From a virus, in the IMG/VR virus record IMGVR_UViG_3300035670_006618, positions 1 through 41,327 of that record: 41,327 bases of DNA; one strand, written 5' to 3'. Both the position numbers and the translations under genes were made by a program. Shown here in pieces: positions 26,740 to 41,327 of this stretch. The notes beneath the pieces are model-generated. The model saw only the letters and a list, made by a program, of their open reading frames with translations. It was not told the origin of the DNA and did not search any database. How positions within the stretch are numbered: position 1 is the first letter of the stretch; every line of letters begins with the position of its first letter.

Positions 26740-26742
26740 CAC

Positions 26743-27316: not shown

Positions 27317-27337
27317 GCGCTCTACCTGTCCGGTTGT

Positions 27338-27365
27338 ATCATACACTACCATCTGGTGTTGTCAA
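27338..27365 (-). promoter_or_regulatory. Near-consensus promoter reading into the structured stretch
   Basis: On the minus strand TTGACA (27360-27365) and TATGAT (27338-27343) are 16 bases apart, at the end of the 72-residue gene. The transcript would start near 27331 and run through the hairpin-rich region toward the packaging genes. Confidence 0.65.
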
Positions 27366-27557
27366 TGGGTTATCTGCTATTTCTGCGATGTTCGACAATT
27401 TTGGGTCAACCTCGAAATATTCTCCCTTTTCATGGAAAACTGGATTTCCACTTGTCGGGGAATACCCGAATAGTGTTGCAAATCTATTTCTGCTGAAACC
27501 GACGAAATATATTCTCGGCACGATCTCGTATACTTTACCTATGGTGTATTTGGTCAT
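27339..27557 (-). CDS. Small hypothetical protein
   Basis: 72 residues (MTKYTIGKVYEIVPRIYFVG onward), beta-rich and aromatic. The start overlaps the previous stop as ATGA, with GGAGATAG upstream. It is the last gene of the coupled small-gene chain. A promoter for the downstream region is embedded in its 3' end. Not recognised. Confidence 0.55.
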   Translation of the reverse strand: MTKYTIGKVYEIVPRIYFVGFSRNRFATLFGYSPTSGNPVFHEKGEYFEVDPKLSNIAEIADNPLTTPDGSV

Positions 27558-28009: not shown

Positions 28010-28158
28010 ACAATTTCTCCCATCCATTTGAGTGCATCAACGTTGTAACAAGTCCCTTGACCTTCGCATAATTCACATTCTGGCTCTGCACCCCCGTGGC
28101 AACAAGGGCATATAACAAAAACGTGCGCATCTTCCGAGTGGCAGGGCTTTCCAGTCAT
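28006..28158 (-). CDS. 50-residue Cys-rich zinc-binding-type protein
   Basis: ATG 28158 to TGA 28006. The product has C6, the CPCC and CELCEGQGTC patterns and a histidine in CCHGG, so it could fold around zinc like a DnaJ-type or rubredoxin-type knuckle. It is linked to the next gene by an ATGA overlap and is preceded by GGAG. Possibly binds nucleic acid or a partner protein. Confidence 0.6.
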   Translation of the reverse strand: MTGKPCHSEDAHVFVICPCCHGGAEPECELCEGQGTCYNVDALKWMGEIV

Positions 28159-28167
28159 CCCATGCTC

Positions 28168-28494
28168 CTACTTGCTGGCCGCTTCGGCTAATGCGCGGAG
28201 TGTTTTCATTATAACGGCATCACCACTTCCACTGTCCAAACCAAGAACATACTCGATTTGTTTATCGATCCACATCATCGCCCCCTGCGCCTCCTCTTTG
28301 GTGACGACTGCACGGATGTATTCGGCTACTTCTGGTGCATCTTTGGCCATTACAAGGTCAGACCCATCCCTGTTGACGGAATACACGCTTTTTTCTGTAT
28401 ATACGCGGTCTCTATCGGCCCATATTCTGTGGTCAGGCATCGGAGAGCTTTGCTCTATCGCGCTAGTCGCGCTCTTGTCTTGCGTGGTCATCAT
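28168..28494 (-). CDS. Hypothetical protein of the small-gene chain
   Basis: 108 residues, acidic and helical (KDAPEVAEYIRAVVTKEEAQ). Two consecutive ATGs at 28494 and 28491 could serve as start, with AGGTGA upstream. It follows directly on the preceding stop. No family recognised. Confidence 0.55.
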   Translation of the reverse strand: MMTTQDKSATSAIEQSSPMPDHRIWADRDRVYTEKSVYSVNRDGSDLVMAKDAPEVAEYIRAVVTKEEAQGAMMWIDKQIEYVLGLDSGSGDAVIMKTLRALAEAASK

Positions 28495-28728
28495 TCACCT
28501 GTCCTTTCTGGGCGTTGTGCGCTCGTGTTCTGAAATCAACATTTCTGCGTGTTCTATATCATTTACCTTTATAGGCGCATCGTTATTGATAATAAGAACA
28601 TCGCTCCCAAGTTTTGCGGAATGCGTTACCTTATCGTATGGCTCCAATCTCTGATAGGTATATTCCGCCTTTTCCGTGCGGACACACCACACATTGAAAT
28701 TAACTTGATCCCAATTAAGACCCGTCAT
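28495..28728 (-). CDS. Hypothetical protein of the small-gene chain
   Basis: 77 residues, soluble, with a basic C-terminus (SEHERTTPRKDR). GGAGGG lies close before the ATG, and the start overlaps the previous stop by four bases. Function unknown. Confidence 0.55.
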   Translation of the reverse strand: MTGLNWDQVNFNVWCVRTEKAEYTYQRLEPYDKVTHSAKLGSDVLIINNDAPIKVNDIEHAEMLISEHERTTPRKDR

Positions 28729-28979
28729 TTTCCCTCCTGTAGTCGCGCCGCAGCGTCTCCGTTGTCAGAGATTGCCTTAAGTAAAGCTGGCTCATATTCA
28801 GATGGCCTAAAAATCTGCCACCATTTTTCGCGCAAAGGTTCAGGCTTATATCCTTCTTCAAACGCCTCAAGGTATCCAAGATAACGCGAATGTTCCATTG
28901 ACTTTGGACTCTCTATTTTGAAAGACCAGCTCACACCATCAATGTCAACAAGAACCTGTGATATGTAATAATTAGCCAT
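28725..28979 (-). CDS. Hypothetical protein of the small-gene chain
   Basis: 84 residues (MANYYISQVLVDIDGVSWSF onward), mixed alpha/beta, with an acidic EEGYKPEPLREKWWQIF stretch. It overlaps both neighbours by four to eight bases. Not recognised. Confidence 0.55.
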   Translation of the reverse strand: MANYYISQVLVDIDGVSWSFKIESPKSMEHSRYLGYLEAFEEGYKPEPLREKWWQIFRPSEYEPALLKAISDNGDAAARLQEGK

Positions 28980-29325
28980 TGTCGTCTCCGTTGTTTATAC
29001 GCTTCGATAGCTTGTCCAAAGCGGCTTGCATGTATGACAGATATTCGTCTCGGATGAACCATCGTGTTTCTTCTGGATTGCCGCCGACACCAAGAGCATC
29101 TTCTGGAACGTGAGCCTTTATCGTTGCGATAGCGTGACCCAAAGCCTCGTGCGCTTCGGTGAGCAATTCCTGTGGGTCTGCTTGCAGCGCGGCTCGGATT
29201 TCAAGCATCCATTCCTTTGGCACAATGTAGCTGTCGCCTTTCATGCCGCATCCGTTGGCCATTTCAAGAGCGCGTTGTTTCCTCGCGTCCGTTACCTCGA
29301 CTGGCTTGGCGTTACTGTCCGTCAT
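28972..29325 (-). CDS. Hypothetical protein of the small-gene chain
   Basis: 117 residues, helical (KEWMLEIRAALQADPQELL, SYMQAALDKLSKRI). The overlapping starts and stops on both sides indicate coupled translation. The composition resembles small accessory proteins of proteobacterial phages. No motif with a known role. Confidence 0.55.
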   Translation of the reverse strand: MTDSNAKPVEVTDARKQRALEMANGCGMKGDSYIVPKEWMLEIRAALQADPQELLTEAHEALGHAIATIKAHVPEDALGVGGNPEETRWFIRDEYLSYMQAALDKLSKRINNGDDNG

Positions 29326-29540
29326 GACCGCACCTCAATAATACGAACCTTCACGGCTCTGGCCCCTTCAACTCGATACCAATATTTCCATGACGCCCAT
29401 CTGCTTTCAGGTGTATATCCTTCGAGAAATGATTTAATCGCCCCTGATTTTGAATACGATGTGCAGACCAACGCTCCGTTGGCGTGTTTGATGGCCCAGT
29501 AGTCATTCATACTGTATCTGTTCCATTTTTTCTTGCTCAT
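29322..29540 (-). CDS. Small basic hypothetical protein
   Basis: 72 residues, Trp/Tyr/Lys-rich (MSKKKWNRYSMNDYWAIKHA), basic, no membrane helix. It resembles short phage proteins that bind nucleic acid, but there is no signature. ATGA-type overlaps occur on both sides. Confidence 0.5.
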   Translation of the reverse strand: MSKKKWNRYSMNDYWAIKHANGALVCTSYSKSGAIKSFLEGYTPESRWASWKYWYRVEGARAVKVRIIEVRS

Positions 29541-30094
29541 TTCGTTTCTCCTGTCGGGGTGTCCGTCCCCTGTGCCTCGATTGCATCAAGCGCATTTTGC
29601 CACGGGCAGTTTGCGTTCGAGTGTTCGCCAATATCGACATTGCACATTACAGCAATTTTCTTTGCCAGCTTATCGGCCATGTCGTGATAATGGTCGCGTT
29701 CTTCAAGTGACTTTTCGTGGTCTTTGCGTTCGCGTTCAAGGGCGGTCTGCGTCCCCTGTGGTGCGGTAACGCGTGGCTTAGGCTTTACAAGAACAGAGAT
29801 TGCTTTTGCACCGTCTTTTCCAGACATTCTTTCGGCTTGCGCTTCTTCTTCGGCTTCTTCCTCAGTTTCAAAGAAAATGCGACCATGAATTTTGCCTTGG
29901 TATTCCACCCCCCATAGGTGTTGCCATGCGGTTTCTGTTGCGCTCTGGCTGGCGCGGTAATGTTCTCTTGCTGCATCCCATATTTTTAAAAAGCACTCCA
30001 TTTGGTGTTCATCAAATGCGCTGTGCTTGCTCGGGTCAAGAAGCCAGTCCGTGTGTTCAAGGGCTGTCAGAAGGTCAATCGGTTTGTCGGTCAT
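29537..30094 (-). CDS. Early-region phage protein with GEHS..NCPWQNAL motif
   Basis: 185 residues from ATG 30094, preferred to ATG 30124 because it gives an ATGA overlap with the upstream gene and follows GGGAGAAAAAG. It has a central Glu/Ala-rich coiled-coil segment and a C-terminal IGEHSNANCPWQNALDAIE, a motif common in accessory proteins of proteobacterial phages. No known biochemical activity. This gene is one of the better hints of a proteobacterial lineage. Confidence 0.6.
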   Translation of the reverse strand: MTDKPIDLLTALEHTDWLLDPSKHSAFDEHQMECFLKIWDAAREHYRASQSATETAWQHLWGVEYQGKIHGRIFFETEEEAEEEAQAERMSGKDGAKAISVLVKPKPRVTAPQGTQTALERERKDHEKSLEERDHYHDMADKLAKKIAVMCNVDIGEHSNANCPWQNALDAIEAQGTDTPTGETK

Positions 30095-30249
30095 CTTTTT
30101 CTCCCAAGGTGAAACTTTCCGCATACGGTGCAGCGATAGGCGTTAGCTGTCGATCCGTTCTTGCGCCAGAAATATATCTGGCTTTTAACAGCCTGTTCTG
30201 CCGTGTCGTAGCCTTTCTTCTTCCGACATACACGTTCTGCGTTTGTCAT
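30091..30249 (-). CDS. 52-residue protein with a Cys pair
   Basis: From ATG 30249 (MTNAERVCRKKKGYDTAEQA); the upstream ATG at 30357 would bury it in the previous gene. It ends YRCTVCGKFHLGRKR, a CxxC plus His knuckle typical of tiny phage proteins that bind nucleic acid or metal. One-base overlap with the membrane protein upstream. Confidence 0.6.
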   Translation of the reverse strand: MTNAERVCRKKKGYDTAEQAVKSQIYFWRKNGSTANAYRCTVCGKFHLGRKR

Positions 30250-30383
30250 CAGCACCACTCCCCGGCGTTGGTTACACAATTGGAATAATCCCGCACGACC
30301 AGTACCCCTAGGGTTATCGGGAGGGCTATCCCTGAAAAGATGAGAAGTGCGAGACAAACCACCTGCGTTGTATGCTTATTCAT
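30249..30383 (-). CDS. 44-residue single-span membrane protein
   Basis: Starts at ATG 30383, preceded by AGGAGATTGAA, giving 44 residues with one hydrophobic helix (VVCLALLIFSGIALPITLGV) and a short C-terminal tail carrying two cysteines. It opens the coupled chain behind the promoter at 30413-30440. Could act on membrane physiology or superinfection; a holin is possible but unsupported. Confidence 0.55.
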   Translation of the reverse strand: MNKHTTQVVCLALLIFSGIALPITLGVLVVRDYSNCVTNAGEWC

Positions 30384-30412
30384 TTCAATCTCCTGTTTGT
30401 TTCCACGACTCC

Positions 30413-30440
30413 ACACTAGCACGCGTAATTGGGATGTCAA
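30413..30440 (-). promoter_or_regulatory. Sigma70-type promoter for the leftward small-gene chain
   Basis: On the minus strand TTGACA (30435-30440) and TAGTGT (30413-30418) are 16 bases apart at the end of the Xre gene. The transcript would start about 25 bases before the membrane-protein gene, so the chain is transcribed independently of the regulator. Confidence 0.6.
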
Positions 30441-30661
30441 CGATTATTTTGATTTGTGATAATCTTGCGTAAGTCTGCCATTACCTTATATGCGTTCTGG
30501 ATTTTATCCGACTGGTACATCTGGACGTGCCTTGCGATAATCGGTTTGCGCCCGTTCTCAAGCTCTCGGAGGTAGTCCTCACTGTAGCCCATGACGATGC
30601 TCATTTCTTTTTGAGATAGACCTAGCGTTGTGCGTATGTGCTTTAGGTGTTGTCTGTTCAT
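30437..30661 (-). CDS. Xre/Cro-family DNA-binding regulator
   Basis: 74 residues, one helix-turn-helix domain. The recognition region LGLSQKEMSIVMGYSEDYLR carries the Gln-Lys-Glu-Met of the first helix, and LENGRKPI is the usual turn after the fourth helix. It has no dimerisation or cleavage domain, so it is Cro-like. AAGGA lies before ATG 30661. It sits next to a divergent control region containing a palindrome and short repeats and is the likely lysogeny or early-gene regulator. Confidence 0.8.
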   Translation of the reverse strand: MNRQHLKHIRTTLGLSQKEMSIVMGYSEDYLRELENGRKPIIARHVQMYQSDKIQNAYKVMADLRKIITNQNNR

Positions 30662-31005
30662 GTTTCATCCTTTAGATAATAGTCCGCTTTCCGCTTGATA
30701 CCCTGATACCCACGGGCATAAAACGGTTTCCCTCTCGGGGCTAATCTCTGGCAGTGTATACCCGAACTACTCGTCTAGATGCCTTGAAAGCATATCCGGT
30801 GAGTCATTCCGCCTGATCCACCCGTAGACGAGGATGGCCCGTTATCAAGAAGCGGTTCGGATGCGGTCATAGTCTAAGCGTACATTTGACCGGGGCGGAA
30901 ATCTCGTCATGTAACCAAGGATTGCTGATGTCCCCCAGTTATCGGAGCAAAGACCCCCACTGCCTATCTGGTTTTACGTTGAAGCCAGCAAACCTAGGGT
31001 GACAT
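30662..31005 (-). other. Long untranslated leader of the Xre gene
   Basis: About 340 bases with no credible gene. On the minus strand it would be the 5' leader of the regulator mRNA from the promoter at 31006-31034. It contains an 8-bp stem (30770-30777 with 30825-30832) enclosing two small hairpins at 30779-30793 and 30798-30822, a three-way-junction shape like the one at 27083-27151 but without sequence identity. No known riboswitch was recognised. Confidence 0.4.
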
Positions 31006-31034
31006 ATCAGAACTAATTGGAAGGGTATTGACAA
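31006..31034 (-). promoter_or_regulatory. Possible leftward promoter for the regulator
   Basis: On the minus strand TTGTCA (31029-31034) and TCTGAT (31006-31011) are 17 bases apart. The -35 box is on the same TTGACAA bases as the rightward promoter, so the two are back-to-back and should compete for polymerase. Confidence 0.45.
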
Positions 31035-31056
31035 ATGAGCTGTGGGGTATTATAGT
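31028..31056 (+). promoter_or_regulatory. Strong rightward promoter for a small RNA
   Basis: TTGACA (31028-31033) and TATAGT (31051-31056), 17 bases apart. Transcription would start near 31063, immediately before a short segment that ends at an intrinsic terminator. Confidence 0.65.
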
Positions 31057-31062
31057 ACCTCT

Positions 31063-31135
31063 ATTGCTCAACTGCGTAGCCGAATTACCAGTTAGCCGCC
31101 TCGGGAATCTCACCAGAAACCCGGGGCATTTTTTT
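31063..31135 (+). ncRNA. Candidate small RNA, about 73 bases
   Basis: The segment lies between a near-consensus promoter and an intrinsic terminator and has no ATG-initiated reading frame of useful length. It has an AACTG/CAGTT hairpin followed by the terminator stem. Position between the two divergent arms of the phage control region suggests a regulatory RNA, perhaps acting on the leftward leader or early mRNA. Start site estimated from the -10 box. Confidence 0.5.
31098..31135 (+). terminator. Intrinsic terminator of the small RNA
   Basis: GCCTCGGG (31098-31105) pairs with CCCGGGGC (31120-31127), eight base pairs with one G-T wobble, and is followed by ATTTTTTT. Confidence 0.75.
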
Positions 31136-31177
31136 ATCCTATCTTCTTTTTCATGGAAATGCAAGTCCTGAATATGT

Positions 31178-31195
31178 GAGGTATTTAGATACCTC
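31178..31195. promoter_or_regulatory. 18-bp palindrome, candidate operator
   Basis: GAGGTAT and ATACCTC flank four bases (TTAG). Its length and symmetry fit the binding site of a Cro-like dimer such as the regulator at 30437-30661. No second copy was noticed. Confidence 0.45.
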
Positions 31196-31277
31196 TTGGT
31201 ATGAAGCTTTAAGCGTTGTAGTGAGCGGCCATAGCACGCGAACGTAAAACAACGCGCAAAGCAAGTAACAAGCTCTA

Positions 31278-31351
31278 GATCGGCACACTATCTACACGTT
31301 TTCAGGATAAGGCATTGAGTTGAATTGAGAATGATCGGCAAAAAGATCGGC
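31278..31351 (+). repeat. Three GATCGGC repeats before the rightward promoter
   Basis: GATCGGC occurs at 31278-31284, 31333-31339 and 31345-31351; the last two start 12 bases apart, about one helical turn. They end 13 bases before the -35 of the promoter at 31365-31392. Activator or repressor sites, or short iterons, are possible. Confidence 0.45.
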
Positions 31352-31364
31352 GTTATCTACCGTC

Positions 31365-31392
31365 TTGACTTTTACAACGGGTGGGGTATGCT
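31365..31392 (+). promoter_or_regulatory. Rightward promoter for the 94-residue gene
   Basis: TTGACT (31365-31370) and TATGCT (31387-31392) are 16 bases apart, with an AGGA ribosome site and ATG 31426 downstream. Confidence 0.6.
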
Positions 31393-31425
31393 AGAGGCCT
31401 TATCACTTAACACACAGGATACACC

Positions 31426-31710
31426 ATGCTTATCAAATACTATAATCTCGACGACGATATTTACATCATCGAAGGCGTCCAAGACGTAACAATTCCATCC
31501 AAAGAGAGCGCAGACCGCCAAGCTACGCAAGATGTCGAGGGCTTCAATGAGTTCAATTTTGATAAGGTTGTAAGCGCACTTGCTCCACTTCGCTTTATCG
31601 AATACGCAAAGGACGGCCCTTGCAGGCTGTTCGTCTACGGCACAGCATATATCTGTTCGGATGATGGAAAAACCATTCATAAATTAGAAGTTAACGGCAA
31701 AGTCGTATAG
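31426..31710 (+). CDS. First rightward early protein, hypothetical
   Basis: 94 residues, acidic, mixed alpha/beta (MLIKYYNLDDDIYIIEGVQD onward), no membrane helix. It has its own promoter and is followed by an intrinsic terminator, so it is a single-gene unit. It is the first gene rightward of the control region, where phages often encode regulators or host-takeover proteins. Not recognised. Confidence 0.6.
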   Translation: MLIKYYNLDDDIYIIEGVQDVTIPSKESADRQATQDVEGFNEFNFDKVVSALAPLRFIEYAKDGPCRLFVYGTAYICSDDGKTIHKLEVNGKVV

Positions 31711-31760
31711 ACTTTAGGTTAGTGCTCGCTGGGGTCAGAGCCACGCGACCCGTCAGAATT

Positions 31761-31790
31761 AAGCCAGTCCCTCACGGGGCTGGTTTTTCT
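31761..31790 (+). terminator. Intrinsic terminator after the 94-residue gene
   Basis: CCAGTCCC and GGGGCTGG form an 8-bp stem with a TCAC loop, followed by TTTTTCT. It lies between two convergent genes and may serve the rightward one mainly. Confidence 0.8.
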
Positions 31791-31989
31791 AATTCAAGCT
31801 CGGAGGCTCCACCGGGAGAAACGCGTTCATATACAAGATGAACTCGTATATGTTATCCGGGGACATCTGGGTAGCTTGCCAGAACGCAAAGGCTTTCTCG
31901 CATTGCTTCGCATCATCGGGATCGTAATACGACCGTATCTCTTTTCCGGTTTCAACGAACTTGTAATACAATTCCACTTTATCGGCCAT
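31789..31989 (-). CDS. 66-residue hypothetical protein, probably leaderless
   Basis: Start at ATG 31989 (MADKVELYYKFVETGKEIRS), not the ATG at 32004. A promoter TTGCCA-17-TACACT ends only five bases before this ATG, so the mRNA would begin at the start codon. The protein is acidic, aromatic and helical. It is the only leftward gene between two rightward units. Unknown function. Confidence 0.5.
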   Translation of the reverse strand: MADKVELYYKFVETGKEIRSYYDPDDAKQCEKAFAFWQATQMSPDNIYEFILYMNAFLPVEPPSLN

Positions 31990-31994
31990 GACCG

Positions 31995-32023
31995 AGTGTA
32001 ACATAACGGACGGGCTATGGCAA
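31995..32023 (-). promoter_or_regulatory. Promoter placed for a leaderless transcript
   Basis: On the minus strand TTGCCA (32018-32023) and TACACT (31995-32000) are 17 bases apart, with ATG five bases after the -10 box. Confidence 0.5.
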
Positions 32024-32130
32024 TTCTGTTTTCAATGGGGACGATTTAGGCGCGTTCAGGGCAGGGAATTAACCTTATGCTAATGAAATTATCTGGCCGA
32101 AAAAAAGCAATAATCGTGTGTCGATTTTTC

Positions 32131-32158
32131 TTGCAATCCATTTTCTGTGTGGTATCGT
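32131..32158 (+). promoter_or_regulatory. Promoter for the rightward small-gene chain
   Basis: TTGCAA (32131-32136) and TATCGT (32153-32158), 16 bases apart, followed by AAGGAGAG and ATG 32190. Confidence 0.5.
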
Positions 32159-32189
32159 GACGATGTGGAAACAAACAAGGAGAGATCAA

Positions 32190-32384
32190 ATGACCAAATA
32201 CAATGACGTATCGACAAACGACCTGATTGCCCGTCACGCGAAACTTGCTGATGAAATCATGGGCCTTGAGTATGGCGACGACCACCTGTTTACGAACCTG
32301 AATGGAAACCTTCCTCGCTACCGCGCTATGCAGGACGAGAAATCGGAAATCCGCTTGGTTCTCGAAGAACGAGGTGTTGCATGA
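32190..32384 (+). CDS. 64-residue hypothetical early protein
   Basis: Start at ATG 32190 (MTKYNDVSTNDLIARHAKLA), after AAGGAGAGATCAA. The upstream in-frame ATGs fall in the promoter. Helical and acidic, it may dimerise through its Leu-rich helices. First gene of an ATGA-linked chain. Not recognised. Confidence 0.6.
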   Translation: MTKYNDVSTNDLIARHAKLADEIMGLEYGDDHLFTNLNGNLPRYRAMQDEKSEIRLVLEERGVA

Positions 32385-32527
32385 TCTACAACATGAACGC
32401 GGAAAGACAGTATTGCGACTTTTACACAAGCTGCGAATACACGGACGGGAAGTTATCTCATATGATCCGCTGGATGACGTTTCCGGATGGAACAGCGATT
32501 GAACTTTGCAGAATGGAGATTGAATGA
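32381..32527 (+). CDS. 48-residue hypothetical protein
   Basis: ATG 32381 overlaps the preceding stop as ATGA and ends the same way at the next gene. The product (MIYNMNAERQYCDFYTSCEY onward) is aromatic with three cysteines. The two coupling junctions are the main evidence. Confidence 0.5.
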   Translation: MIYNMNAERQYCDFYTSCEYTDGKLSHMIRWMTFPDGTAIELCRMEIE

Positions 32528-32772
32528 TGACACCAAACTACGATAGCTTCAAAATCGGAAAGCGTGACGGTGTGCCAGAGTGCGCGGCTTGTAAACAAAC
32601 GGCCACTCATTGCATACGAGTAAAGAACGGTTGGTTTCGTGGCGACGACGATTTTTACGACATATGTATCCGTCATTTGAAAATGTATTTAAGTTACAAG
32701 AATCAAGATCGTTTCTGGGCGCACGTTCGCACTAAAGATAAGTTCTTTAACAATGAATCAGGTGCATCATGA
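32524..32772 (+). CDS. 82-residue protein with CxxC and His, possible metal site
   Basis: Contains ECAACKQTATHC and CIRHLK, giving C-x2-C, H and further Cys/His ligands that could hold a zinc. Soluble, basic C-terminal half. ATGA overlaps on both sides. A nucleic-acid-binding role is plausible but unproven. Confidence 0.55.
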   Translation: MMTPNYDSFKIGKRDGVPECAACKQTATHCIRVKNGWFRGDDDFYDICIRHLKMYLSYKNQDRFWAHVRTKDKFFNNESGAS

Positions 32773-32870
32773 CCGACTCACTTAAACTCGCCGCCCATGT
32801 GGCAACGCTGGCCCTACTGGTTTACGGGTGTGTTGCTCTGGTTTATTTCACTCAGTATGGAGATTTTTGA
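32769..32870 (+). CDS. 33-residue membrane peptide
   Basis: One hydrophobic helix (VATLALLVYGCVALVYF) after a short polar N-terminus. Start and stop both overlap neighbours as ATGA. Membrane-associated early peptide of unknown role. Confidence 0.5.
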   Translation: MTDSLKLAAHVATLALLVYGCVALVYFTQYGDF

Positions 32871-33070
32871 TGACCAAGGATAACGGCGTATTGGCCCAAC
32901 TCTACGAATACCGCGAGAAGTTCAAGAACAAGCACTACCCTGTCCGGCAGACGGTGGACGGTGGCAAGATTTACGATGAGCGTCACGGTTACGACGAGTT
33001 CGGTAATCCGGTTGTAGCGAGAGCCATGAGAGTGTTACAGCCGCATCCAGAGTTTAAGGAGATAGCATGA
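32870..33070 (+). CDS. 66-residue hypothetical protein
   Basis: From ATG 32870 (MTKDNGVLAQLYEYREKFKN), joined to the previous stop by one base. Charged, with a YDEFGNPVVARAM segment. No known family. Confidence 0.55.
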   Translation: MTKDNGVLAQLYEYREKFKNKHYPVRQTVDGGKIYDERHGYDEFGNPVVARAMRVLQPHPEFKEIA

Positions 33071-33432
33071 CCGAAGATGAAATTCTTTCATTGGCGGCAA
33101 GGAAAGCTAAACGCGGTGAATATTTCACGGTTCATAAATATAAATACCGTGACGAGAAATTACGCTCTAAAGTCAGATCAATGACGAAGGCTGGCAAGCT
33201 TGTGTTTAATGGCCTAAGACATAAGGATTATGAGTATTACAGACCAGAGGATAGAGACGTACTAGAAAAACAAGAATTTGCTCATAACGAACGCATGAAA
33301 GCTATTCATGCAAAGAATGTCGATTGGCATTTAAAGCAGGCTGCAAAATATTCAAACGAGAGGGGTGACCCGAAATCTTTATACTCTTGGCACATAAAGC
33401 AAGCAGAAGTGGAAAGGATGTTATCAATATGA
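33067..33432 (+). CDS. 121-residue basic protein, winged-helix-like N-terminus
   Basis: The first 60 residues (EILSLAARKAKRGEYFTVHK, then SMTKAGKLVFNGLRHKDYEY) read like a winged-helix DNA-binding fold. The rest is a charged helical tail ending EVERMLSI. ATGA overlaps on both sides. Possible early transcription or replication regulator. The fold assignment is by eye. Confidence 0.5.
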   Translation: MTEDEILSLAARKAKRGEYFTVHKYKYRDEKLRSKVRSMTKAGKLVFNGLRHKDYEYYRPEDRDVLEKQEFAHNERMKAIHAKNVDWHLKQAAKYSNERGDPKSLYSWHIKQAEVERMLSI

Positions 33433-33611
33433 CGGATAAAGAATATGTTCAACGATTTGTAGCCCACATGGTTTCTATCGTTGGGAAACGTGAAGACATG
33501 GACGTGAGGGGTTATGCAGAAGGGGTGGCAGCGTCCTACATGGTGGACTTTCCCGACTTATCACCAGAAGCAGCAGCAGAAGGTGATGTAAGTTATTGGG
33601 AGGAAGAATGA
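33429..33611 (+). CDS. 60-residue acidic hypothetical protein
   Basis: Start ATG 33429 (MTDKEYVQRFVAHMVSIVGK), joined by ATGA to its neighbours. The C-terminus is acidic (LSPEAAAEGDVSYWEEE). Not recognised. Confidence 0.55.
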   Translation: MTDKEYVQRFVAHMVSIVGKREDMDVRGYAEGVAASYMVDFPDLSPEAAAEGDVSYWEEE

Positions 33612-33982
33612 CCCCCACACCACGCGAGATTGAAGCTTTCTTTTCAGGGATGGAACACTCATTAAAGCAATGCGACAAACGGGGTTATGTGTCTCGGGAT
33701 AAGATACAGCGAGAGCTTACAACGCTACGGCTACGGAAAGATGCCCTCATCAGCAAAGGAGTAATAGCCTTTGGGTGTAACGATAAGGTGGTCGAGGACT
33801 TGAAGTTCAAGAAACGTCCCGGCCTCTTTCAGTTTTTTCGTAAGCACCATATCCGCTTGAGACGGGGTAAGGTTGCCAGACGGATGGGAGTGGGCGAGGA
33901 TAATCCCGGACGCGTTGTTAAGCAAAGCGGCGACCATGATATGTTTGGGGTCGGCTACTGTTCCGGCTACCCCACCTTGTGA
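33608..33982 (+). pseudogene. Last early-chain gene, probably broken at the RadC boundary
   Basis: Begins with a normal ATGA coupling at 33608. The first 40 residues (MTPTPREIEAFFSGMEHSLK onward) look natural. From about 33731 the frame is simply the complement of the RadC-like gene (KKRPGLFQFFRKHHIRLRRG and so on), low in acidic residues and unlike a folded protein. The original 3' end was probably replaced when the RadC side joined. It may instead be a real gene of about 40 residues with accidental read-through. Confidence 0.5.
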
Positions 33983-34222
33983 GGCTTCGTATATCCCCGT
34001 AACCCGGTTAGCGCGGTTGAGGGTTAGCACTTTGAACTGCTCCAACAACTCAAGCTTGTTCTTGTCCCACGATTCCATAAGAATGTTATACGCATCCCGA
34101 GAACAGGTTATCTTTGGTCTTTCGCTTGTGGGGACGATGGATTTATAGCTGAGTTGAATCTCAGCCACTCGATATGAAGGCTCTGGAAACAGGGAAGTTT
34201 GAAATTGCTTTTGTTTCGCCAT
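33731..34222 (-). CDS. RadC-like JAB-domain protein of mobile elements
   Basis: 163 residues, the short form found in integrative elements. NRANRVTGIYEASQGGVAGT is the family core, and HSHPSGNLTPSQAD (111-124) supplies the JAMM metal ligands H111, H113 and D124. It closely resembles the RadC-type proteins of Bacteroidota elements. Its role is unproven, perhaps a metallopeptidase or repair factor used during element maintenance. It is convergent with the early phage chain and marks the start of the mobilization module. Confidence 0.85.
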   Translation of the reverse strand: MAKQKQFQTSLFPEPSYRVAEIQLSYKSIVPTSERPKITCSRDAYNILMESWDKNKLELLEQFKVLTLNRANRVTGIYEASQGGVAGTVADPKHIMVAALLNNASGIILAHSHPSGNLTPSQADMVLTKKLKEAGTFLELQVLDHLIVTPKGYYSFADEGIFP

Positions 34223-34232
34223 GGGTTATGAT
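34205..34232 (+). promoter_or_regulatory. Promoter for the Toprim gene, leaderless
   Basis: TTGCTT (34205-34210) and TATGAT (34227-34232), 16 bases apart; ATG 34238 follows after five bases. It lies across the start of the divergent RadC-like gene. Confidence 0.45.
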
Positions 34233-34237
34233 AGCGT

Positions 34238-35194
34238 ATGGACATTGACCAGATCAAGTCTGTTCCGGTTTCTTATCTTGCTGAAAGGCTAGGGGGACGG
34301 TTTGCCCATACAAAGGGAAAAGATGAATGGTGGTATTCACCGCTTAGGCCGGAAGAAAAAACCCCATCCTTTAAAATTGACACGTCAAAAAATTTCTGGA
34401 AGGACTTCGGCCACCACCTTAAGGGCGGTTCTGTTATCGACCTTTATCTTGATTTTCACGGTATATCCCGAGATGACAAGGACGGATTTAAACAGGCCGT
34501 TGAATATATATCCCAGTTGTCACCCGTTGACTTGGTTCCTTTTAAGCGAGACGTGGTGAAACAGTATTCCGAGACATTCAAGATTTTATCGGAAAGTGAC
34601 AAGATATGGGCCGACCCTCTAAAGGCCGAACTTCACAGAAGATGTTTCCAGAAGAATGTAACGGAAATGTATATGAAGCAGGTCCAAGTCCTGAACACCG
34701 AGACGGGGAAAAAGGCCTTCGGGTTTTCTTTACAGAACGACAAGGGTGGATTGGAAATATCCATCCCCAAAAGAGGCGGGGGAAACTTCAAGCTCTGTCA
34801 TGGGAAGAAAGGCATAACAACCCTAGAGGGCAAGGGGGATGTTTTCATATTCGAGGGTTGGAGCGATTTTGTAACATGGGTTCACGTGGAACCAACCTTA
34901 GAGTTTCAGTCCCATATCATTCTAAATTCGACTTCGCTGGTGCATGAGGCCGAAGACGCAATAAAGGCGCTCAATCCCTCCAAGGCTTATCTTTTCATGG
35001 ATAATGACCGGGCGGGAGAATTGGCAACGGCTGGCCTAGGGGACATTCTGCATAGCCTCAATATCCCCTTCGGTTCTATGAACCATTACTATGAGCCTCA
35101 CAAGGATTTAAACGACTGGTGGGTAGCCTCTAAAGGAACGGCGGCACGGACTACGAGAAGCCCGTTACCGTCGATCAAACTCAAGCCTAGTTGA
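34238..35194 (+). CDS. Primase-like Toprim protein
   Basis: 318 residues. The N-terminus (EWWYSPLRPEEKTPSFKID and WKDFGHHLKGGSVIDLYLD) is the DnaG zinc-domain relative common in mobile elements, but the metal ligands are absent. A Toprim domain follows with the acid in FIFEGWSDFVTW and the DxD in YLFMDNDRAGELA. It would prime or assist replication or transfer of element DNA. No ribosome site precedes ATG 34238. It converges on the coupling-protein gene with an 8-base overlap. Confidence 0.8.
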   Translation: MDIDQIKSVPVSYLAERLGGRFAHTKGKDEWWYSPLRPEEKTPSFKIDTSKNFWKDFGHHLKGGSVIDLYLDFHGISRDDKDGFKQAVEYISQLSPVDLVPFKRDVVKQYSETFKILSESDKIWADPLKAELHRRCFQKNVTEMYMKQVQVLNTETGKKAFGFSLQNDKGGLEISIPKRGGGNFKLCHGKKGITTLEGKGDVFIFEGWSDFVTWVHVEPTLEFQSHIILNSTSLVHEAEDAIKALNPSKAYLFMDNDRAGELATAGLGDILHSLNIPFGSMNHYYEPHKDLNDWWVASKGTAARTTRSPLPSIKLKPS

Positions 35195-36869
35195 AATACG
35201 GGTTAGGGTCGTACTTCCCTTGAAGGTCTGGCATTTCGTAATACGCTAGCTTGTTATAGAACGTAGGGGGACGTTGCTCGATAACCGCGAATATCTTATG
35301 GGCCGATGCGCGTCTTAGTTCGTCCGGGGTAATGAGTGGTCTAGCCGTGGAGTTGCCCTTAGCAAACCCTGTAAACGTCCGGTTGCCAAAAGACTTAGAC
35401 ACATAGTCCGATGTGAAGTTATCCCCAAGAGAAAAGAAATGTTTAACAGCGGTGTTCCCTAGGAAGCTTTCCCAGTTCTTTCCATACTTATCAGACAGTT
35501 GAATGAGTGATTGAAGGATAGCCCAGATTGTTACATTGTAACCCGCGTAGGTTGATAGGGCAGTTTCTATTTCCGGAAGGTATCCTAAAGCCGCGAGTTC
35601 ATCAAGCAAGAATGTTACCCGTTTGTCTTTGTTCCTGACGACTGATCTTAACGAAGTCGTCACGACTAAACGAAGCCACCTTGACTGGGAGGTTAACTTA
35701 TCTGCAGGGATGATAACATAAAGGGTGGTCTTGCCCTTGCTCAAATCGTTTATATTGAAGTTGGATTTTTTCATGCTCTCCTGAACGGCGGGGGATTTAA
35801 GAAAGTCCGTGGCCTGTTGGGCGGTGGCAACGATAGACCCATACGTCCGGTCCGCTGTTTCCATGATTGTGAGTAACTCATTGGCCGCACCTGAGACAAT
35901 CTCGTTATCGCTTACAGACATATCCGCTAGGAGGTCGGCCCAATCGTCCTTTTTAAGTCGAAGCCATTTCCAGATTAGCGTGAGTTGATCTTCCCCTTTT
36001 TCAATGAGATAAATAATCATGGCGGTGATTAAAGACCTTGCCCGGTCATTAAAGAACCTATCTCCTTTTTCTTCTTCCGGGACAATCATTTCAGATATAA
36101 TCCCCGCATCGTCTGCAAGGGTCTTGGAGTTCTTTAAAAGGTCCAGAGGATTGTAGGTTCCAGCCCCACCGTTGAGGCCCCACGGGTCTAATATAACCAC
36201 ATCCTGACCGATGGACTTCTGATACCTTGAAGTAATGGCCGCGTTCTCTCCTTTGGGGTCAATGACAACCCACGAGCCTTTGTAACTTCCCACTCCCAGT
36301 AAATTCGGAATTATAAGGTTGGTTCCCTTTCCCCCTCTTGTCCCGGCCACGGTAATTAAATGTCCCTGCTTTGAATAAAAGTTACCTCCTCCGATATATA
36401 AACCGGATTGGTTTTTAAACTCCTGCATTTCTTCCTCGGTGGCAAACTTGGCTGTTCCGAACCTTCTGGATTCCATGATGGATTCCCAGACCTTATCCCG
36501 CCACAGGTCAAACCCTCGCATGAAAACTAGGGTCAGAATTGTGTTTACGATAAGGTAAATGAAGAACGCATTGGGACCGACTCGGGAGTTTTCAAACAGC
36601 ATTACAGACAAGACGATGACCCCATAGATGATGACCCAAACCAGTATAGCAAAGGCAATCATGGAAGCTCTTTGTAATGGGGTTAATGGATAAAGTAACG
36701 GGGGTTCGTCCTTGTCCCGGTAGTGGCGATTATAGCACCGGATATAGCCCCACAGTGCCCCGCCTAGTGTGATCGGGGTAAGGAGGATACCGACAGCATA
36801 CAATACTCGTTTCGTTGATCCCTCGGGGTCGGGGAGTGGCCGCATGAGGCCCAGCAGTTTGTCTAACAT
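35187..36869 (-). CDS. VirD4/TraG-type coupling protein
   Basis: 560 residues. Three membrane spans lie near residues 22-43, 68-92 and 100-118. The ATPase has Walker A GTRGGKGT at 176-183 and Walker B LLDE at 421-424 (VTFLLDELAALG). It would link the relaxosome to a type IV secretion channel, as in conjugative and mobilizable elements. No channel genes are in the window. It is divergent from mobC, with about 130 bases between them. Confidence 0.9.
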   Translation of the reverse strand: MLDKLLGLMRPLPDPEGSTKRVLYAVGILLTPITLGGALWGYIRCYNRHYRDKDEPPLLYPLTPLQRASMIAFAILVWVIIYGVIVLSVMLFENSRVGPNAFFIYLIVNTILTLVFMRGFDLWRDKVWESIMESRRFGTAKFATEEEMQEFKNQSGLYIGGGNFYSKQGHLITVAGTRGGKGTNLIIPNLLGVGSYKGSWVVIDPKGENAAITSRYQKSIGQDVVILDPWGLNGGAGTYNPLDLLKNSKTLADDAGIISEMIVPEEEKGDRFFNDRARSLITAMIIYLIEKGEDQLTLIWKWLRLKKDDWADLLADMSVSDNEIVSGAANELLTIMETADRTYGSIVATAQQATDFLKSPAVQESMKKSNFNINDLSKGKTTLYVIIPADKLTSQSRWLRLVVTTSLRSVVRNKDKRVTFLLDELAALGYLPEIETALSTYAGYNVTIWAILQSLIQLSDKYGKNWESFLGNTAVKHFFSLGDNFTSDYVSKSFGNRTFTGFAKGNSTARPLITPDELRRASAHKIFAVIEQRPPTFYNKLAYYEMPDLQGKYDPNPYFN

Positions 36870-36998
36870 AGGTTTAGAGGATTAAGGGTTTATGATTAAA
36901 TTGACAACAGCGAGGCTTTAATTTAGTCTATACGCAAGATGTGGGCTAATGCCCTAAATTTAACCACGCCCCACTTGTAAGGGAGAACCCTTAACCCC
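36870..36998. other. Coupling protein/mobC intergenic region, candidate oriT
   Basis: Divergent TTGACAA (36901-36907) gives back-to-back -35 boxes. Two inverted repeats follow: GGGC TAAT GCCC at 36943-36954 and AAGGG AGAA CCCTT at 36979-36992. The AAGGG repeat lies next to mobC, where relaxase oriT sites are often found. The nic site was not identified. Confidence 0.4.
36901..36929 (+). promoter_or_regulatory. Possible promoter for mobC and the relaxase
   Basis: TTGACA (36901-36906) and TAGTCT (36924-36929), 17 bases apart. The mirrored TTGTCA on the other strand could serve the coupling-protein gene. Confidence 0.45.
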
Positions 36999-37325
36999 AT
37001 GAACAGACCAAAAAAGAACGAGCAAGATAAAAGAAAAAAGAAACTTCGCATAGGCGTTAACGATGAAGAAGAATTAATTATTCAAGCCGAAGCCGAGCGC
37101 GAGGGAATGACGGTTTCAGCATACGTCCGTAAGAGGTTATTGGGTGCAGTCCCCGAAAAGAGAAAGGCCAATCCTTATAGGGCCAGTATCATCCGGGGCT
37201 TGGGGGAAGTCGGTCATATTTTACACATACTCCGGCAGGGGAAGGTCGAGCAATCGGTTATCGGGAAACTTGTTGAGTTATCGGAAAACCTGATTAAAGA
37301 ATTGTCAGATGGTCATACGCGGTAA
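36999..37325 (+). CDS. mobC: MobC-family relaxosome protein
   Basis: 108 residues, strongly basic N-terminus (MNRPKKNEQDKRKKKLRIGV). A ribbon-helix-helix pattern follows (RIGVNDEEELIIQAEAEREG, then MTVSAYVRKRLLG), as in MobC proteins that bind oriT and assist the relaxase. It overlaps the relaxase gene by 17 bases, the usual mobC-mobA order. Good confidence. Confidence 0.85.
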   Translation: MNRPKKNEQDKRKKKLRIGVNDEEELIIQAEAEREGMTVSAYVRKRLLGAVPEKRKANPYRASIIRGLGEVGHILHILRQGKVEQSVIGKLVELSENLIKELSDGHTR

Positions 37326-38268
37326 GTCCAGAGGCGACGCAAGGCAGCTTGCTTATTACCTCCTCTCCACAAAAGAGAATGAGGCGGTAAAGGTCATGGA
37401 GATGCGCGGGACTTCCTTTGATGATGTGGTGAAGTCCATCCAACAAATGGGCTACACCTCCGAGCTTACCAATGGGGAAAAGGGGTTGTTTCATTGCCAG
37501 ATCAACCCGGCGATTGGTGAGGATAAGAACCTGTCCTATAAAGACTGGTTACGCATGGCAGATATTGCCGAAGAAGAATACGGCCTGACCGGACAAAAGC
37601 GGGTAATCATCCAGCATAAGAAACACGACAGGTTGCATATTCACGTTGTCTGGGAGAGGTTTGACTATGAGAAAAACATTCTTAGAACGGATTCCTACAC
37701 CCACTATAAAGGCCGGGTGGCTTGCCAGCGTATAGAGGATGAGTTGAGCCTCCGTAAAACCCCTTGGAGGGCCAAGGAGAAGCGCGACCATATCAAGAAG
37801 CTAATCGGCCCCTTATGGACGAAAACGAAGTCAGCGGAGGGTTTTATCGGCAAGGCGAGGGAATTGGGTTACGAGGTTGTGACCTCCCAAAATAGAAGAC
37901 CATTTATGGTCGTGGACGAAACTGGACGTTCCTATGATCTGGTCCGGGCGATACCGGGAGCCAAGACCAAGGACGTAAGGGACAGGTTCCAGCACACCAA
38001 ATTGAAAACCGATAAAGAAGTTATTCGGGGTATCCGAGCGAAGGAGTCCGAAAAAGCATTTAACTTAATGCAGGAAAAATCACTCGATAAAATGGACGAG
38101 TTCAAAAACAAACAGGAGGGTAGGGACGAACGAAAGGAGTTAGATCGAAGGACCGAAAAGGTCCGCGCTTTAACCTCTAACCTAAAACCTGATAAAGAGC
38201 AGCAAAAGAAAGACTTCAAGGAGTCTATTAGGCGTGCGCTTGATAAAGATCGCGACAAGGAAAAGTAG
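37309..38268 (+). CDS. Relaxase (mobilization nuclease domain)
   Basis: 319 residues. The N-terminal MVIRGKSRGDARQLAYYLL holds the likely nicking tyrosine at Y16 or Y17. The histidine triad motif HKKHDRLHIHVVW at 103-115 supplies metal ligands. It resembles the proteobacterial MobA/VirD2-type family whose proteins begin with an IRGKSRG motif. It nicks at oriT and leads single-stranded DNA to the coupling protein. The C-terminus is charged and helical. Its last residues (RALDKDRDKEK) recur after the downstream endonuclease gene, suggesting insertion at its 3' end. Confidence 0.85.
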   Translation: MVIRGKSRGDARQLAYYLLSTKENEAVKVMEMRGTSFDDVVKSIQQMGYTSELTNGEKGLFHCQINPAIGEDKNLSYKDWLRMADIAEEEYGLTGQKRVIIQHKKHDRLHIHVVWERFDYEKNILRTDSYTHYKGRVACQRIEDELSLRKTPWRAKEKRDHIKKLIGPLWTKTKSAEGFIGKARELGYEVVTSQNRRPFMVVDETGRSYDLVRAIPGAKTKDVRDRFQHTKLKTDKEVIRGIRAKESEKAFNLMQEKSLDKMDEFKNKQEGRDERKELDRRTEKVRALTSNLKPDKEQQKKDFKESIRRALDKDRDKEK

Positions 38269-38309
38269 TTTACATTCTCGAAGCTATTTGATAGCATGGT
38301 TCAACTGGT

Positions 38310-38366
38310 GGGTAGGCATACCCCGCAAGCTAGACGCTGCCTATACAGCGCGAAGGCCAGAGCCTT
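38310..38366 (+). promoter_or_regulatory. Three-hairpin leader of the HNH/AP2 endonuclease gene
   Basis: GGGTA/TACCC at 38310-38323, CGCTG/CAGCG at 38335-38350 and AAGGC/GCCTT at 38353-38366 are consecutive 5-bp hairpins. The AGGAG ribosome site at 38376-38380 follows. The array suggests a structured leader limiting translation on read-through mRNA. Confidence 0.5.
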
Positions 38367-38387
38367 AACGCTTATAGGAGCTTATGA

Positions 38388-38885
38388 ATGCCAAAACAAA
38401 TCCCCCTTACCCAAGGTAAATTCGCGCTCGTCGACGACGATATGTATGACTTCCTGATGCAATGGAAGTGGAACATCCAATCGGCTGGATATGCTGTAAG
38501 GCAGGTTCGACACGAAAGGATTATTGATGGTTACATTTGGACTCGCATTGAGGCCATCTTAATGCACCGTCTCGTGTGTAACCCACCTGAGGGTTTGCTC
38601 GTTGACCATATTAACAGGGATAAATTAGATAATAGACGTGAAAATCTTCGGCCATGCACTGTGCAGCAGAATTTCTATAATATTGATAAGAGGCCATCAA
38701 ATCGCGGCTCCAAGTATAAGGGCGTTCGATATTGTAAGGATAAAAAACGCTATTTGGTCTTTGTTTCCTATGACAGCCAGAGGCTTCGTGTGGGTTCATT
38801 TAAGTGTGAGATTGAGGCGGCCAGAGCATATAACGAGGCTGCTAAAAAATATCAGGGAGAGTTTGCATATTTGAACGACGTTTAA
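38388..38885 (+). CDS. Homing-type HNH endonuclease with AP2 domain
   Basis: 165 residues. The HNH_3-type core is LMHRLVCNPPEGLLVDHINR continuing to LDNRRENLRPC (about residues 58-90). The C-terminal domain (SKYKGVRYCKDKKRYLVFV, then EIEAARAYNEAAKKY) is an AP2-type DNA-binding unit. This pairing is typical of free-standing homing endonucleases. The gene lies between the relaxase and a copy of the relaxase tail, so it has probably inserted there. AGGAG lies seven bases before ATG 38388. Confidence 0.85.
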   Translation: MPKQIPLTQGKFALVDDDMYDFLMQWKWNIQSAGYAVRQVRHERIIDGYIWTRIEAILMHRLVCNPPEGLLVDHINRDKLDNRRENLRPCTVQQNFYNIDKRPSNRGSKYKGVRYCKDKKRYLVFVSYDSQRLRVGSFKCEIEAARAYNEAAKKYQGEFAYLNDV

Positions 38886-38919
38886 AGCACTCGATAAAGA
38901 CAAAGACCGTGAACGCTGA
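38886..38919 (+). pseudogene. Displaced copy of the relaxase 3' end
   Basis: In the frame beginning at 38881 the DNA encodes FKALDKDKDRER followed by TGA at 38917-38919, closely matching the relaxase end ALDKDRDKEK. The DNA is only moderately similar, so the two tails come from different lineages. It indicates the endonuclease gene interrupts an ancestral relaxase end while bringing a replacement tail. Confidence 0.55.
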
Positions 38920-39091
38920 ACCAATAAAGCAGGAATTTTATTACTCCGGTAGACGCGTGGAAAGCGTGAACCGATGCCACAACATAGAAGGCAAGACCGC
39001 AGGATATTTGATATGGTTTGCAGATACTGAACAGCCTCAGTCGCTATTGCTGGATTTTCTTCCGGTACTAGAAGTCAAGGACGTTATCTAA
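38909..39091 (+). CDS. 60-residue protein, GTG start
   Basis: GTG 38909 overlaps the displaced relaxase stop codon (CGTGAACGCTGA), so translation was probably once coupled to the relaxase. The product (MNAEPIKQEFYYSGRRVESV onward) is soluble with aromatic residues. It converges on the integrase gene with a 24-base overlap. No ribosome site of its own. Function unknown. Confidence 0.45.
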   Translation: MNAEPIKQEFYYSGRRVESVNRCHNIEGKTAGYLIWFADTEQPQSLLLDFLPVLEVKDVI

Positions 39092-40258
39092 GGCGTTGTC
39101 CGTGTCCTTCGTGGTAAAATGGCTCTGATAGCCGATAGTGGTTTGTATGGACGTGTGGCGGTAGAGTTGCTGCAATACAGGGAGAGCGATTTTATCCCCT
39201 GCTAACTGACCAAAAGTATGCCGTGCGATATGTAATGTTAGCTTCTTCGATATGTCGCATTTGTTCGCCACAAGCTTAAGCCATGCGTTCAGGTCATGAA
39301 CCCTCGACTTGATCCGTTTCTGGACCGCGTTGTTATTCGATAGGTTGGGTAGTGTAGCCAGATCGTGGAATACCAGATCGTGTTTGTTCTCGGAATAACT
39401 GTTAATGATTTTTTTACTTTTGTCGTGTAGCTTGATTGATCCACCTTTGTTATTCTTGCCCATCGTGTAGTGAAGTCGTCCGTCCTGAATGTCGGAATGT
39501 TTCAATCTAAGAACGTCACTTATCCTCATTCCAGCGTTATAGAAAGAAAACAGCCAGACCTTCCGCGCATGATCTAAATTGTTTTCAAGCTTGGCATCCT
39601 CAAGCCTTTTTACTTCTTCTGCCGACAGTCCGATCTTAGAGGTATCGGAAAACTTAATCCGAATACCACCCTTGCCGAATGGATAGCTTTTCTTATCCGC
39701 GACTTGTTCCCCTATCGCCTGATTGAAAATCGACCTGACCACTACAAGATGATTGACAACCGTTCTGTCAGAAATTTCTTTGGCCTTTAGCCACGCAGCG
39801 TATCGCTTCAATAAAGCAGGGGTTATATCATTAAATCCTATGTCCCCGGCGAACTCGTTAAATCGCTCAACCCTTGGCTTGTCGGCTGAGTGCTGATTAA
39901 ACTTTCCCCGCTTGCTCAGGTTATCAAGGTATATCTTGGATTGCTTTTTGAACGTTCCGTCTTTAGCGCCAATAAAAGACTTGCGAATTGTCTGGGCTGT
40001 GCTATCCTTCTTTGCGGTTTGTAACTCAATCACTTTATCCGTAACTTCAGCTATCCTTTGGATGATAAGGTTGTTTAGCCGGGCAGAGTTGGGGTGTGAT
40101 TTCTTAACTCGGTTGTTCTCGAAGTCCCAGTCCTTTTCAAGGATAGAGTGACCAAGAGATATAATCGAAGGCCGACGATTCTTGATAATCTGGATGATGA
40201 TAGGCCGGGTTCCGTCCTTCTTTTCACGGCTTCTCAGGATGACTTTTACGGATGCCAT
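39068..40258 (-). CDS. int: Tyrosine-recombinase integrase
   Basis: 396 residues with an N-terminal arm-binding domain (residues 1-100), a helical core-binding domain (about 105-205) and the catalytic domain. Catalytic residues are R245 (AGMRISD), H343 and R346 (LHIARHT), H368 and nucleophile Y377 (TTIGYQSH). The arm-type N-terminus resembles integrases of Bacteroidota mobile elements. Its start lies 125 bases from the tRNA-Leu fragment, the expected layout beside an att site. It is the only integrase in the window. Confidence 0.9.
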   Translation of the reverse strand: MASVKVILRSREKKDGTRPIIIQIIKNRRPSIISLGHSILEKDWDFENNRVKKSHPNSARLNNLIIQRIAEVTDKVIELQTAKKDSTAQTIRKSFIGAKDGTFKKQSKIYLDNLSKRGKFNQHSADKPRVERFNEFAGDIGFNDITPALLKRYAAWLKAKEISDRTVVNHLVVVRSIFNQAIGEQVADKKSYPFGKGGIRIKFSDTSKIGLSAEEVKRLEDAKLENNLDHARKVWLFSFYNAGMRISDVLRLKHSDIQDGRLHYTMGKNNKGGSIKLHDKSKKIINSYSENKHDLVFHDLATLPNLSNNNAVQKRIKSRVHDLNAWLKLVANKCDISKKLTLHIARHTFGQLAGDKIALPVLQQLYRHTSIQTTIGYQSHFTTKDTDNALDNVLDF

Positions 40259-40285
40259 TGGTCTTGCACTTGGTCGAACATTTCG

Positions 40286-40305
40286 TGGTTGAACGTGGTT
40301 GAACG
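40286..40305. repeat. Tandem 10-bp repeats upstream of the integrase
   Basis: TGGTTGAACG occurs twice end to end (40286-40295, 40296-40305), with a degenerate third copy just before, near 40270. Candidate arm-type integrase sites or excisionase sites. Confidence 0.45.
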
Positions 40306-40383
40306 TGTTTTGATATGGACGAATTTAGCGGATTTTACGCCATGTTGCACCATATAAAACCACGTAATATCAAATAGTTAGAA

Positions 40384-40437
40384 CTTAAAATCCTGTCCTA
40401 TGTAAATAGGGTACGAGTTCAAATCTCGTCCGGGGCA
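40384..40437 (+). other. 3' part of a tRNA-Leu(UAA) gene, probable att site
   Basis: The anticodon loop CTTAAAA (TAA at 40386-40388), the anticodon-stem 3' strand TCCTG, a class II variable arm, the T arm ACGAG TTCAAAT CTCGT (40413-40429), the acceptor strand CCGGGGC and discriminator A437 are all present. The 5' half is absent: the bases before the loop do not pair with TCCTG. CCA is not encoded. The position beside the integrase marks it as the displaced tRNA end left by integration, or attP if the element is circular. Confidence 0.75.
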
Positions 40438-41122: not shown

Positions 41123-41327
41123 ATGGAAATTATCTGCCTTGAGGACGAAGCCTTTTACCGACTGGTCGAAACGGTTGTTGCCCGTATCAAAGACCAGCAC
41201 AAGGTCAAGGATAAATGGATCACCGGGGGCGAGGCCATGATAATGATGCGGATTAATTCCAAGACGACATTGCAGAAACTTCGCGACGAGGGAAAGATAC
41301 GTTTCACACAACCCGTACCGAAGCTCA
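41123..41327 (+). CDS. HTH-domain DNA-binding protein, cut by the window edge
   Basis: 68 residues from ATG 41123 to the edge. MEIICLEDEAFYRLVETVVA leads into WITGGEAMIMMRINSKTTLQ and KLRDEGKIRF, the helix-turn-helix of the small excisionase-like proteins widespread in Bacteroidota integrative elements. No Shine-Dalgarno is visible, in contrast to the phage genes. It may belong to a second element or to the true chromosome. Confidence 0.75.
   Translation, partial: MEIICLEDEAFYRLVETVVARIKDQHKVKDKWITGGEAMIMMRINSKTTLQKLRDEGKIRFTQPVPKL

Follow-up and report, generated by a model that had tools for sequence, protein, structure and literature searches.

An SU10-like phage genome probably joined to a Bacteroidota mobilizable element: evidence for a composite element with two possible routes of transfer

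The viral record IMGVR_UViG_3300035670_006618, here analysed as a whole IMG/VR entry and referred to as the window (41,327 bases, without an end repeat), is best explained as one composite mobile element, in which the genome of an SU10-like podovirus and the backbone of a Bacteroidota integrative and mobilizable element (IME) are joined at ~33.7 kb; we give this reading a probability of about 0.77. It draws on gene content, on a single attachment (att) site, on the order integrase–att–helix-turn-helix (HTH) gene, on a conserved site resembling an origin of transfer (oriT) and on a bounded parallel in Hymenobacter fodinae, all of them read from sequence. The phage block (~0.1–33.7 kb), in which almost every gene between ~0.1 and 30.7 kb lies on the minus strand, passes directly into a transfer-gene module, where RadC, primase, VirD4, MobC, relaxase and HNH-AP2 genes are followed by an integrase gene, a tRNA-Leu(UAA) fragment, a further HNH gene and the first part of an HTH gene (Table 1). 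An earlier note on this DNA had proposed that virion genes (terminase, portal, capsid, adaptor) and RadC, primase, coupling protein, MobC and relaxase genes belong to one element; profile matches confirmed each of these gene assignments. The note did not mention the HNH gene and the HTH start in the 890 bases beyond the tRNA fragment.

In such an element the integrase, perhaps together with the HTH protein, would insert a circle at the 3′ end of tRNA-Leu(UAA), and the virion genes would package the excised DNA. The relaxase would nick oriT and, jointly with the VirD4 that the element itself encodes, could pass one strand into the mating channel provided by a resident conjugative element. That the element may move both as a virion and by helper-driven conjugation seems a fair inference.

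Geometry of the attachment site

A single integrase beside a tRNA-Leu fragment had been reported earlier, and indeed PF00589 matches only once in the window, next to the 3′ part of tRNA-Leu(UAA), which is followed by a terminator-like stretch. ARAGORN found no intact tRNA in the window, and no second att copy was present on either strand, the best other match to the 33-nt core (19/33) being at the level of shuffled DNA. In particular, the gap between the phage genes and RadC (30–34 kb) contains no att copy; a second att site and a second integrase between 30.6 and 34.3 kb, either of which would by the earlier note have refuted a single element, were sought, and neither exists there. The best tRNA-Leu(UAA) match to the fragment among 395 Bacteroidota genomes reached 80% over 59 nt, and a search of 396 genomes from the Chitinophagaceae group did not find the fragment.

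The integrase and the HTH protein, the latter inferred to be excisionase-like, are encoded divergently and only 0.9 kb apart in the window, with the tRNA fragment between them. By contrast, Bacteroidota IMEs whose ends are visible carry integrase and HTH genes at opposite ends. In the bounded elements L109 and L115 these genes are 16–19 kb apart, the HTH end has an intact tRNA-Phe, a 57-nt copy of the tRNA-Phe 3′ end adjoins the integrase, and both genes point away from att once the ends are joined. The order integrase–att–HTH arises in bounded relatives only through joining both ends of one element; in the window it would correspond to attP on an excised circle or to a tandem junction. With the two genes facing each other across att at this distance, the normal left end of the IME is therefore missing between the phage genes and RadC. 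An assembler could have produced the join through the 52-bp repeat, but such a join still links two ends of one element, and under either origin the all-phage DNA left of RadC occupies the place of the element's remainder. The record probably stems from an excised circle, or else from a tandem copy. The earlier reading as a single element is supported; its wording as a prophage is more tentative, the geometry fitting an excised circle or a tandem junction.

Alternatively, two elements could abut, a prophage lying beside an IME or an IME tandem from which the intervening att site has been deleted. Tandem arrangements of IMEs with prophages or with decayed elements are common (PMC5704250), and the last rightward phage gene (ATG at ~33608) overruns the 3′ end of RadC and is apparently cut by it. 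We nevertheless regard this arrangement as improbable, given that the boundary holds neither an att site nor a second integrase, that the two halves share a k-mer signature and that a bounded single element of the same kind is found in Hymenobacter (see below).

The transfer module and its junction with the phage genes

To collect relatives of the window's VirD4, 84,980 genomes were searched with a profile. Among the matches listed, identity was 43–52% in Flavobacterium, Chitinophagaceae, Spirosoma, Larkinella, Algoriphagus, Niastella and Hymenobacter, and fell to ≤37% in Alphaproteobacteria and others. The Bacteroidota elements concerned (L108–L122 and L126) all have VirD4, most of them also have relaxase, MobC, RadC and primase, as does the window, and where both ends are visible their att site is a tRNA 3′ end, again as in the window. 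The gene order integrase, relaxase, MobC, VirD4 is likewise common to the window and to IMEs of the L109/L115 type. The mobilization module is thus a Bacteroidota IME backbone. What sets the window apart is its phage head and tail set; the search made found no related set in these elements, except in the Hymenobacter locus L122.

The gap between virD4 and mobC contains a candidate oriT, and this gap can be aligned with its counterparts at 10 Bacteroidota loci; the assignment rests on conservation only. The aligned blocks are nearly invariant, and the nic-like block reads (A/G)TCTTGC across the loci. In the hairpin the letters have changed while pairing has been retained, the window having GGGC..GCCC as against GTAG..CTAC elsewhere. 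Shuffling the window stretch 20,000 times gave either of the two 9–10-nt blocks in only 12 cases. Residues Y17, H103, H110, H112 and N66 of the relaxase are conserved in the alignment; together with the oriT-like site, they suggest that transfer functions have been maintained. No VirB-type protein, VirB4-like or other mating protein, was found in the ORFs scanned of this incomplete record, the coupling protein being the sole representative; nor were plasmid replication or partition genes seen among these ORFs, apart from the primase.

Turning to the phage half, three related phage records (G020, G049 and G050) have their structural genes in the same order as the window, with 31–81% identity, and show no matches to its mobilization genes or integrase. 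G050, the closest phage relative that is complete by its end repeat (87 nt), has no PF00589 integrase, so that the best explanation of the window's integrase is as a component of the IME backbone on which the phage now depends. A portal search of 395 Bacteroidota genomes gave one distant match, on a short contig, and the nearest named relatives of the portals are mostly phages of Proteobacteria.

The two halves also differ in how their genes start. Under the same scoring, Shine–Dalgarno (SD) sites precede 81% of phage genes in the window and 77% in the Hymenobacter element (30% and 35% after shuffling). They were found for 1 of 7 mobilization genes in the window, 0 of 5 backbone genes of the Hymenobacter element (with the start of the integrase assigned by eye), 0 of 16 nearby Hymenobacter chromosomal genes and 5–9% of genes in four known Bacteroidota phages. 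Since SD sites mark the phage genes and not the transfer genes, the window joins two gene pools, the phage halves of both elements coming from an SD-using one. SD use was also considered as proof of a proteobacterial phage host and rejected: because SD sites occur in the Hymenobacter element and in some genes of the Bacteroidota-type prophage records L236–L238 as well, they mark the gene pool of origin and not the present host.

A misjoining of phage and IME contigs near 33.7 kb would account for the abrupt change in SD use at the junction, and the record is, after all, an assembled one. However, the tetranucleotide distance between mobilization module and window phage (0.251; within-phage null: mean 0.208, maximum 0.233) is below those between the module and 10 related elements (0.353–0.515) or the three related phages (0.412–0.655), and the corresponding codon-use distance (0.081) coincides with the 95% point of the within-phage null and is lower than that to any other group tested. 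The GC content of the halves is equal (0.466 and 0.471), two SD-led HNH genes of phage type lie within the IME part, and the junction between phage and RadC has no long repeat. Composition, internal HNH genes and equal GC argue against a chimera, and the same kind of union is present in an isolate genome, so that we consider misassembly very unlikely.

Several observations weigh against a single composite element. Its left end falls outside the record, and so does the left end of the phage operon, in whose recorded part no lysis genes were recognised. VirD4 and relaxase were not found in 48 TerL-related phage records, and no other copy of the exact joint between phage and mobilization genes was found. 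The junction is sharp, SD-using phage genes giving way to non-SD mobilization genes at the overrun RadC end, and the tetranucleotide distance between the halves slightly exceeds the within-phage maximum. Finally, L236–L238 carry the same integrase and HTH genes adjacent and in parallel, with no att visible between them; proximity of integrase and HTH alone is consequently no proof of a circle.

It may also be that there is one element, an IME that still works by conjugative transfer alone and carries the phage genome as inert or decayed cargo. This would fit the failure to find lysis and most replication genes in the record, and translation of SD-led genes could be inefficient in a Bacteroidota host. 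On the other hand, the TerL, portal, capsid and adaptor genes are intact, the main virion genes are about full length relative to their relatives, absent lysis genes say little when the end of the record is missing, and the Hymenobacter element retains an endolysin and a full head–tail set. We therefore hold inert cargo to be possible but rather unlikely.

A bounded counterpart in Hymenobacter fodinae

Scanning IMG/VR with a VirD4 profile brought up a single relative, in record G835 (45,950 bases; locus L122), which is identical over 19.5 kb to contig NZ_SRLA01000005.1 of the isolate Hymenobacter fodinae 92R-1. From left to right it encodes an integrase at the left end, VirD4, MobC and relaxase, then phage proteins (endolysin, tape measure, head-closure, scaffold, head morphogenesis, portal, Erf and SSB, with capsid- and TerL-like genes identified by inspection) and an HTH protein at the right end. 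On the H. fodinae contig the element is flanked by a perfect 48-bp direct repeat, at 87595–87642 on the integrase side and at 133841–133888, where it forms the 3′ end of an intact tRNA-Met. One att pair thus encloses phage and mobilization genes, in all 46.2 kb. Together with the integrase–att–HTH order and the shared k-mer signature, this supports the earlier proposal that virion and mobilization genes form one element in the window.

The two elements are alike in integrase family, VirD4, MobC, relaxase, HTH, virion genes and SD-led phage genes. Unlike the window, the H. fodinae element has a siphovirus-type module, is integrated at tRNA-Met, gives no RadC or primase match and shows no oriT-like match in its virD4–mobC gap; its mobilization cassette is inverted relative to that of the window and adjoins the lysis genes. 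The difference in phage type and the inversion favour an independent union of phage and mobilization genes in the two cases. Integrase and VirD4 trees do not decide the matter, placing both elements outside the main VirD4 IME clade with their mutual position unresolved.

G835 also has an apparent restriction–modification gene pair (L202/L203, 34754–37916) and an ArdC-like anti-restriction gene (L201, 4744–5625).

Affiliation of the element and additional features

In terms of known classes, the window has several of the features that define an IME, namely a site-specific integrase with its att site, its own relaxase with catalytic residues and an oriT (the latter by conservation only), and no complete type IV secretion system in the ORFs scanned of the incomplete record. 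It also has the intact terminase, portal, capsid and adaptor genes of a tailed phage. Phage satellites lack a virion set of their own, whereas the window itself encodes TerL, portal, capsid, adaptor and tail proteins; the full mating-pair formation system of an integrative and conjugative element is not present in the record.

Among the searchable papers, the nearest described cases are the Streptococcus prophage Phi1207.3 (PMC4260502) and derivatives of P1-like phage-plasmids (PMC10879196). For Phi1207.3, transfer by a conjugation-like process has been reported; its mechanism is unknown and no relaxase is named in that paper, whereas the window has a relaxase, a coupling protein and an oriT-like site. 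P1-like derivatives with a relaxase or oriT are mostly plasmids that are no longer phages and that gained these functions after the loss of phage functions (PMC10879196). They combine a phage-derived replicon with mobilization genes, as does the window, but are plasmid-borne, while the window is integrative. Compared with known IMEs and prophages, the new feature is that phage and mobilization genes are united, which was observed in two cases with different phages.

Transfer by phages and transfer by conjugation are generally regarded as separate routes. If the present reading is true, either could be open to an integrative temperate phage that carries an oriT and encodes a relaxase, a coupling protein and an IME integrase of its own; its host range would then extend beyond what its receptor allows, and mobile elements would become harder to classify. 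It is tempting, though distinctly speculative, to imagine a class of Bacteroidota temperate phages that spread both as virions and, by means of an oriT, a relaxase and a coupling protein of their own, by conjugation. Since SD-using, Proteobacteria-like phage genes are combined with Bacteroidota-type integration and transfer genes, such elements might even cross phyla, being quiet passengers that conjugation moves in Bacteroidota and productive phages in SD-using recipients. The bounded example in a culturable isolate, H. fodinae 92R-1, makes the question of dual transfer directly testable.

Table 1. Features of the window, with positions, strand and supporting evidence
Feature	Position	Strand	Evidence
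Tail, tail-fibre and neck genes	95–9831	−	PHROG tail hits at 1408–3188; homologues in same order in G020, G050
Conserved 688-aa protein	6558–8624	−	
SU10-type adaptor	8621–9304	−	SU10_adaptor PF24175
Major capsid protein	11710–12624	−	phrog_371, PF25209; 81% aa identity in G020
Portal protein, SU10 type (SU10_portal)	15931–18177	−	phrog_1216, PF23899
Terminase large subunit (TerL)	24410–25909	−	phrog_2, E=2e-36
Leftward phage early genes	25879–30661	−	ORFs (open reading frames); SD sites in many
HTH repressor-like gene closing the early genes	30437–30661	−	HTH_31
Rightward small phage genes	31426–33730	+	SD sites in several
RadC-like JAB protein, first IME-backbone gene	33731–34222	−	PF04002, E=1e-37; 46–59% identity in IMEs
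Toprim/DnaG-like primase	34238–35194	+	PF13155, dnaG similarity; homologues in IMEs
VirD4-type coupling protein	35187–36869	−	PF02534, E=1e-74; 43–52% identity to Bacteroidota IMEs
Candidate oriT	36934–36997	−	Inverted repeat AAGGG-ttct-CCCTT, ACAAG, GGGC-atta-GCCC hairpin, nic-like CACATCTTGC
MobC/NikA-like relaxosome protein	36999–37325	+	PF21983, E=1.5e-10
MobP-type relaxase	37309–38268	+	PF03432
HNH-AP2 homing-type endonuclease, phage type	38388–38885	+	SD site
Tyrosine integrase (Arm-DNA-bind_5/SAM_5)	39068–40258	−	46–51% identity to IME integrases
att core, 3′ part of tRNA-Leu(UAA)	40386–40437	+	Anticodon loop to 3′ end
HNH endonuclease, phage type	40454–40867	−	phrog_2255, E=9e-27; SD site
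HTH protein, cut by record end	41123–41327	+	50–67% identity to HTH at tRNA-proximal end of IMEs

General searches added little: Rfam gave no match in the window, phages, plasmids and E. coli contained no DNA near-identical to it, and single-sequence scans with VirD4 and integrase as well as a relaxase profile scan of viral records returned nothing useful.

Some further observations concern the relatives of the IME part. The viral records L234, L236, L237 and L238 (39–46 kb, of which 10–12 kb of each was read) all contain the same HTH gene as the window, and in L236–L238 the integrase/HTH pair is accompanied by ArdC-like and SSB-like genes, some genes showing SD sites. L114 and L116, from the Chitinophagaceae genomes IBVUCB1 and LGM1, are elements of 36–37 kb with nearly identical VirD4 and integrase genes, which suggests recent transfer. 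L118 comes from a record titled as a Phycisphaerales MAG, but its genome (G060) falls in the family of a Chitinophagaceae genome, and the title is probably wrong.

Within the phage block, a GroES-like co-chaperonin gene (14547–14861) lies in the head operon and is kept in all three relatives. Between the divergent phage operons, ~0.75 kb (30662–31425) is without clear genes or an Rfam match and could be an origin or control region. A sugar cassette (18137–24357), conserved in G020, G049 and G050, separates the portal and TerL genes; its MptE-like, nucleotide-sugar epimerase, glycosyltransferase-like, cytidylyltransferase-like and methyltransferase-like genes possibly serve virion or surface glycosylation.

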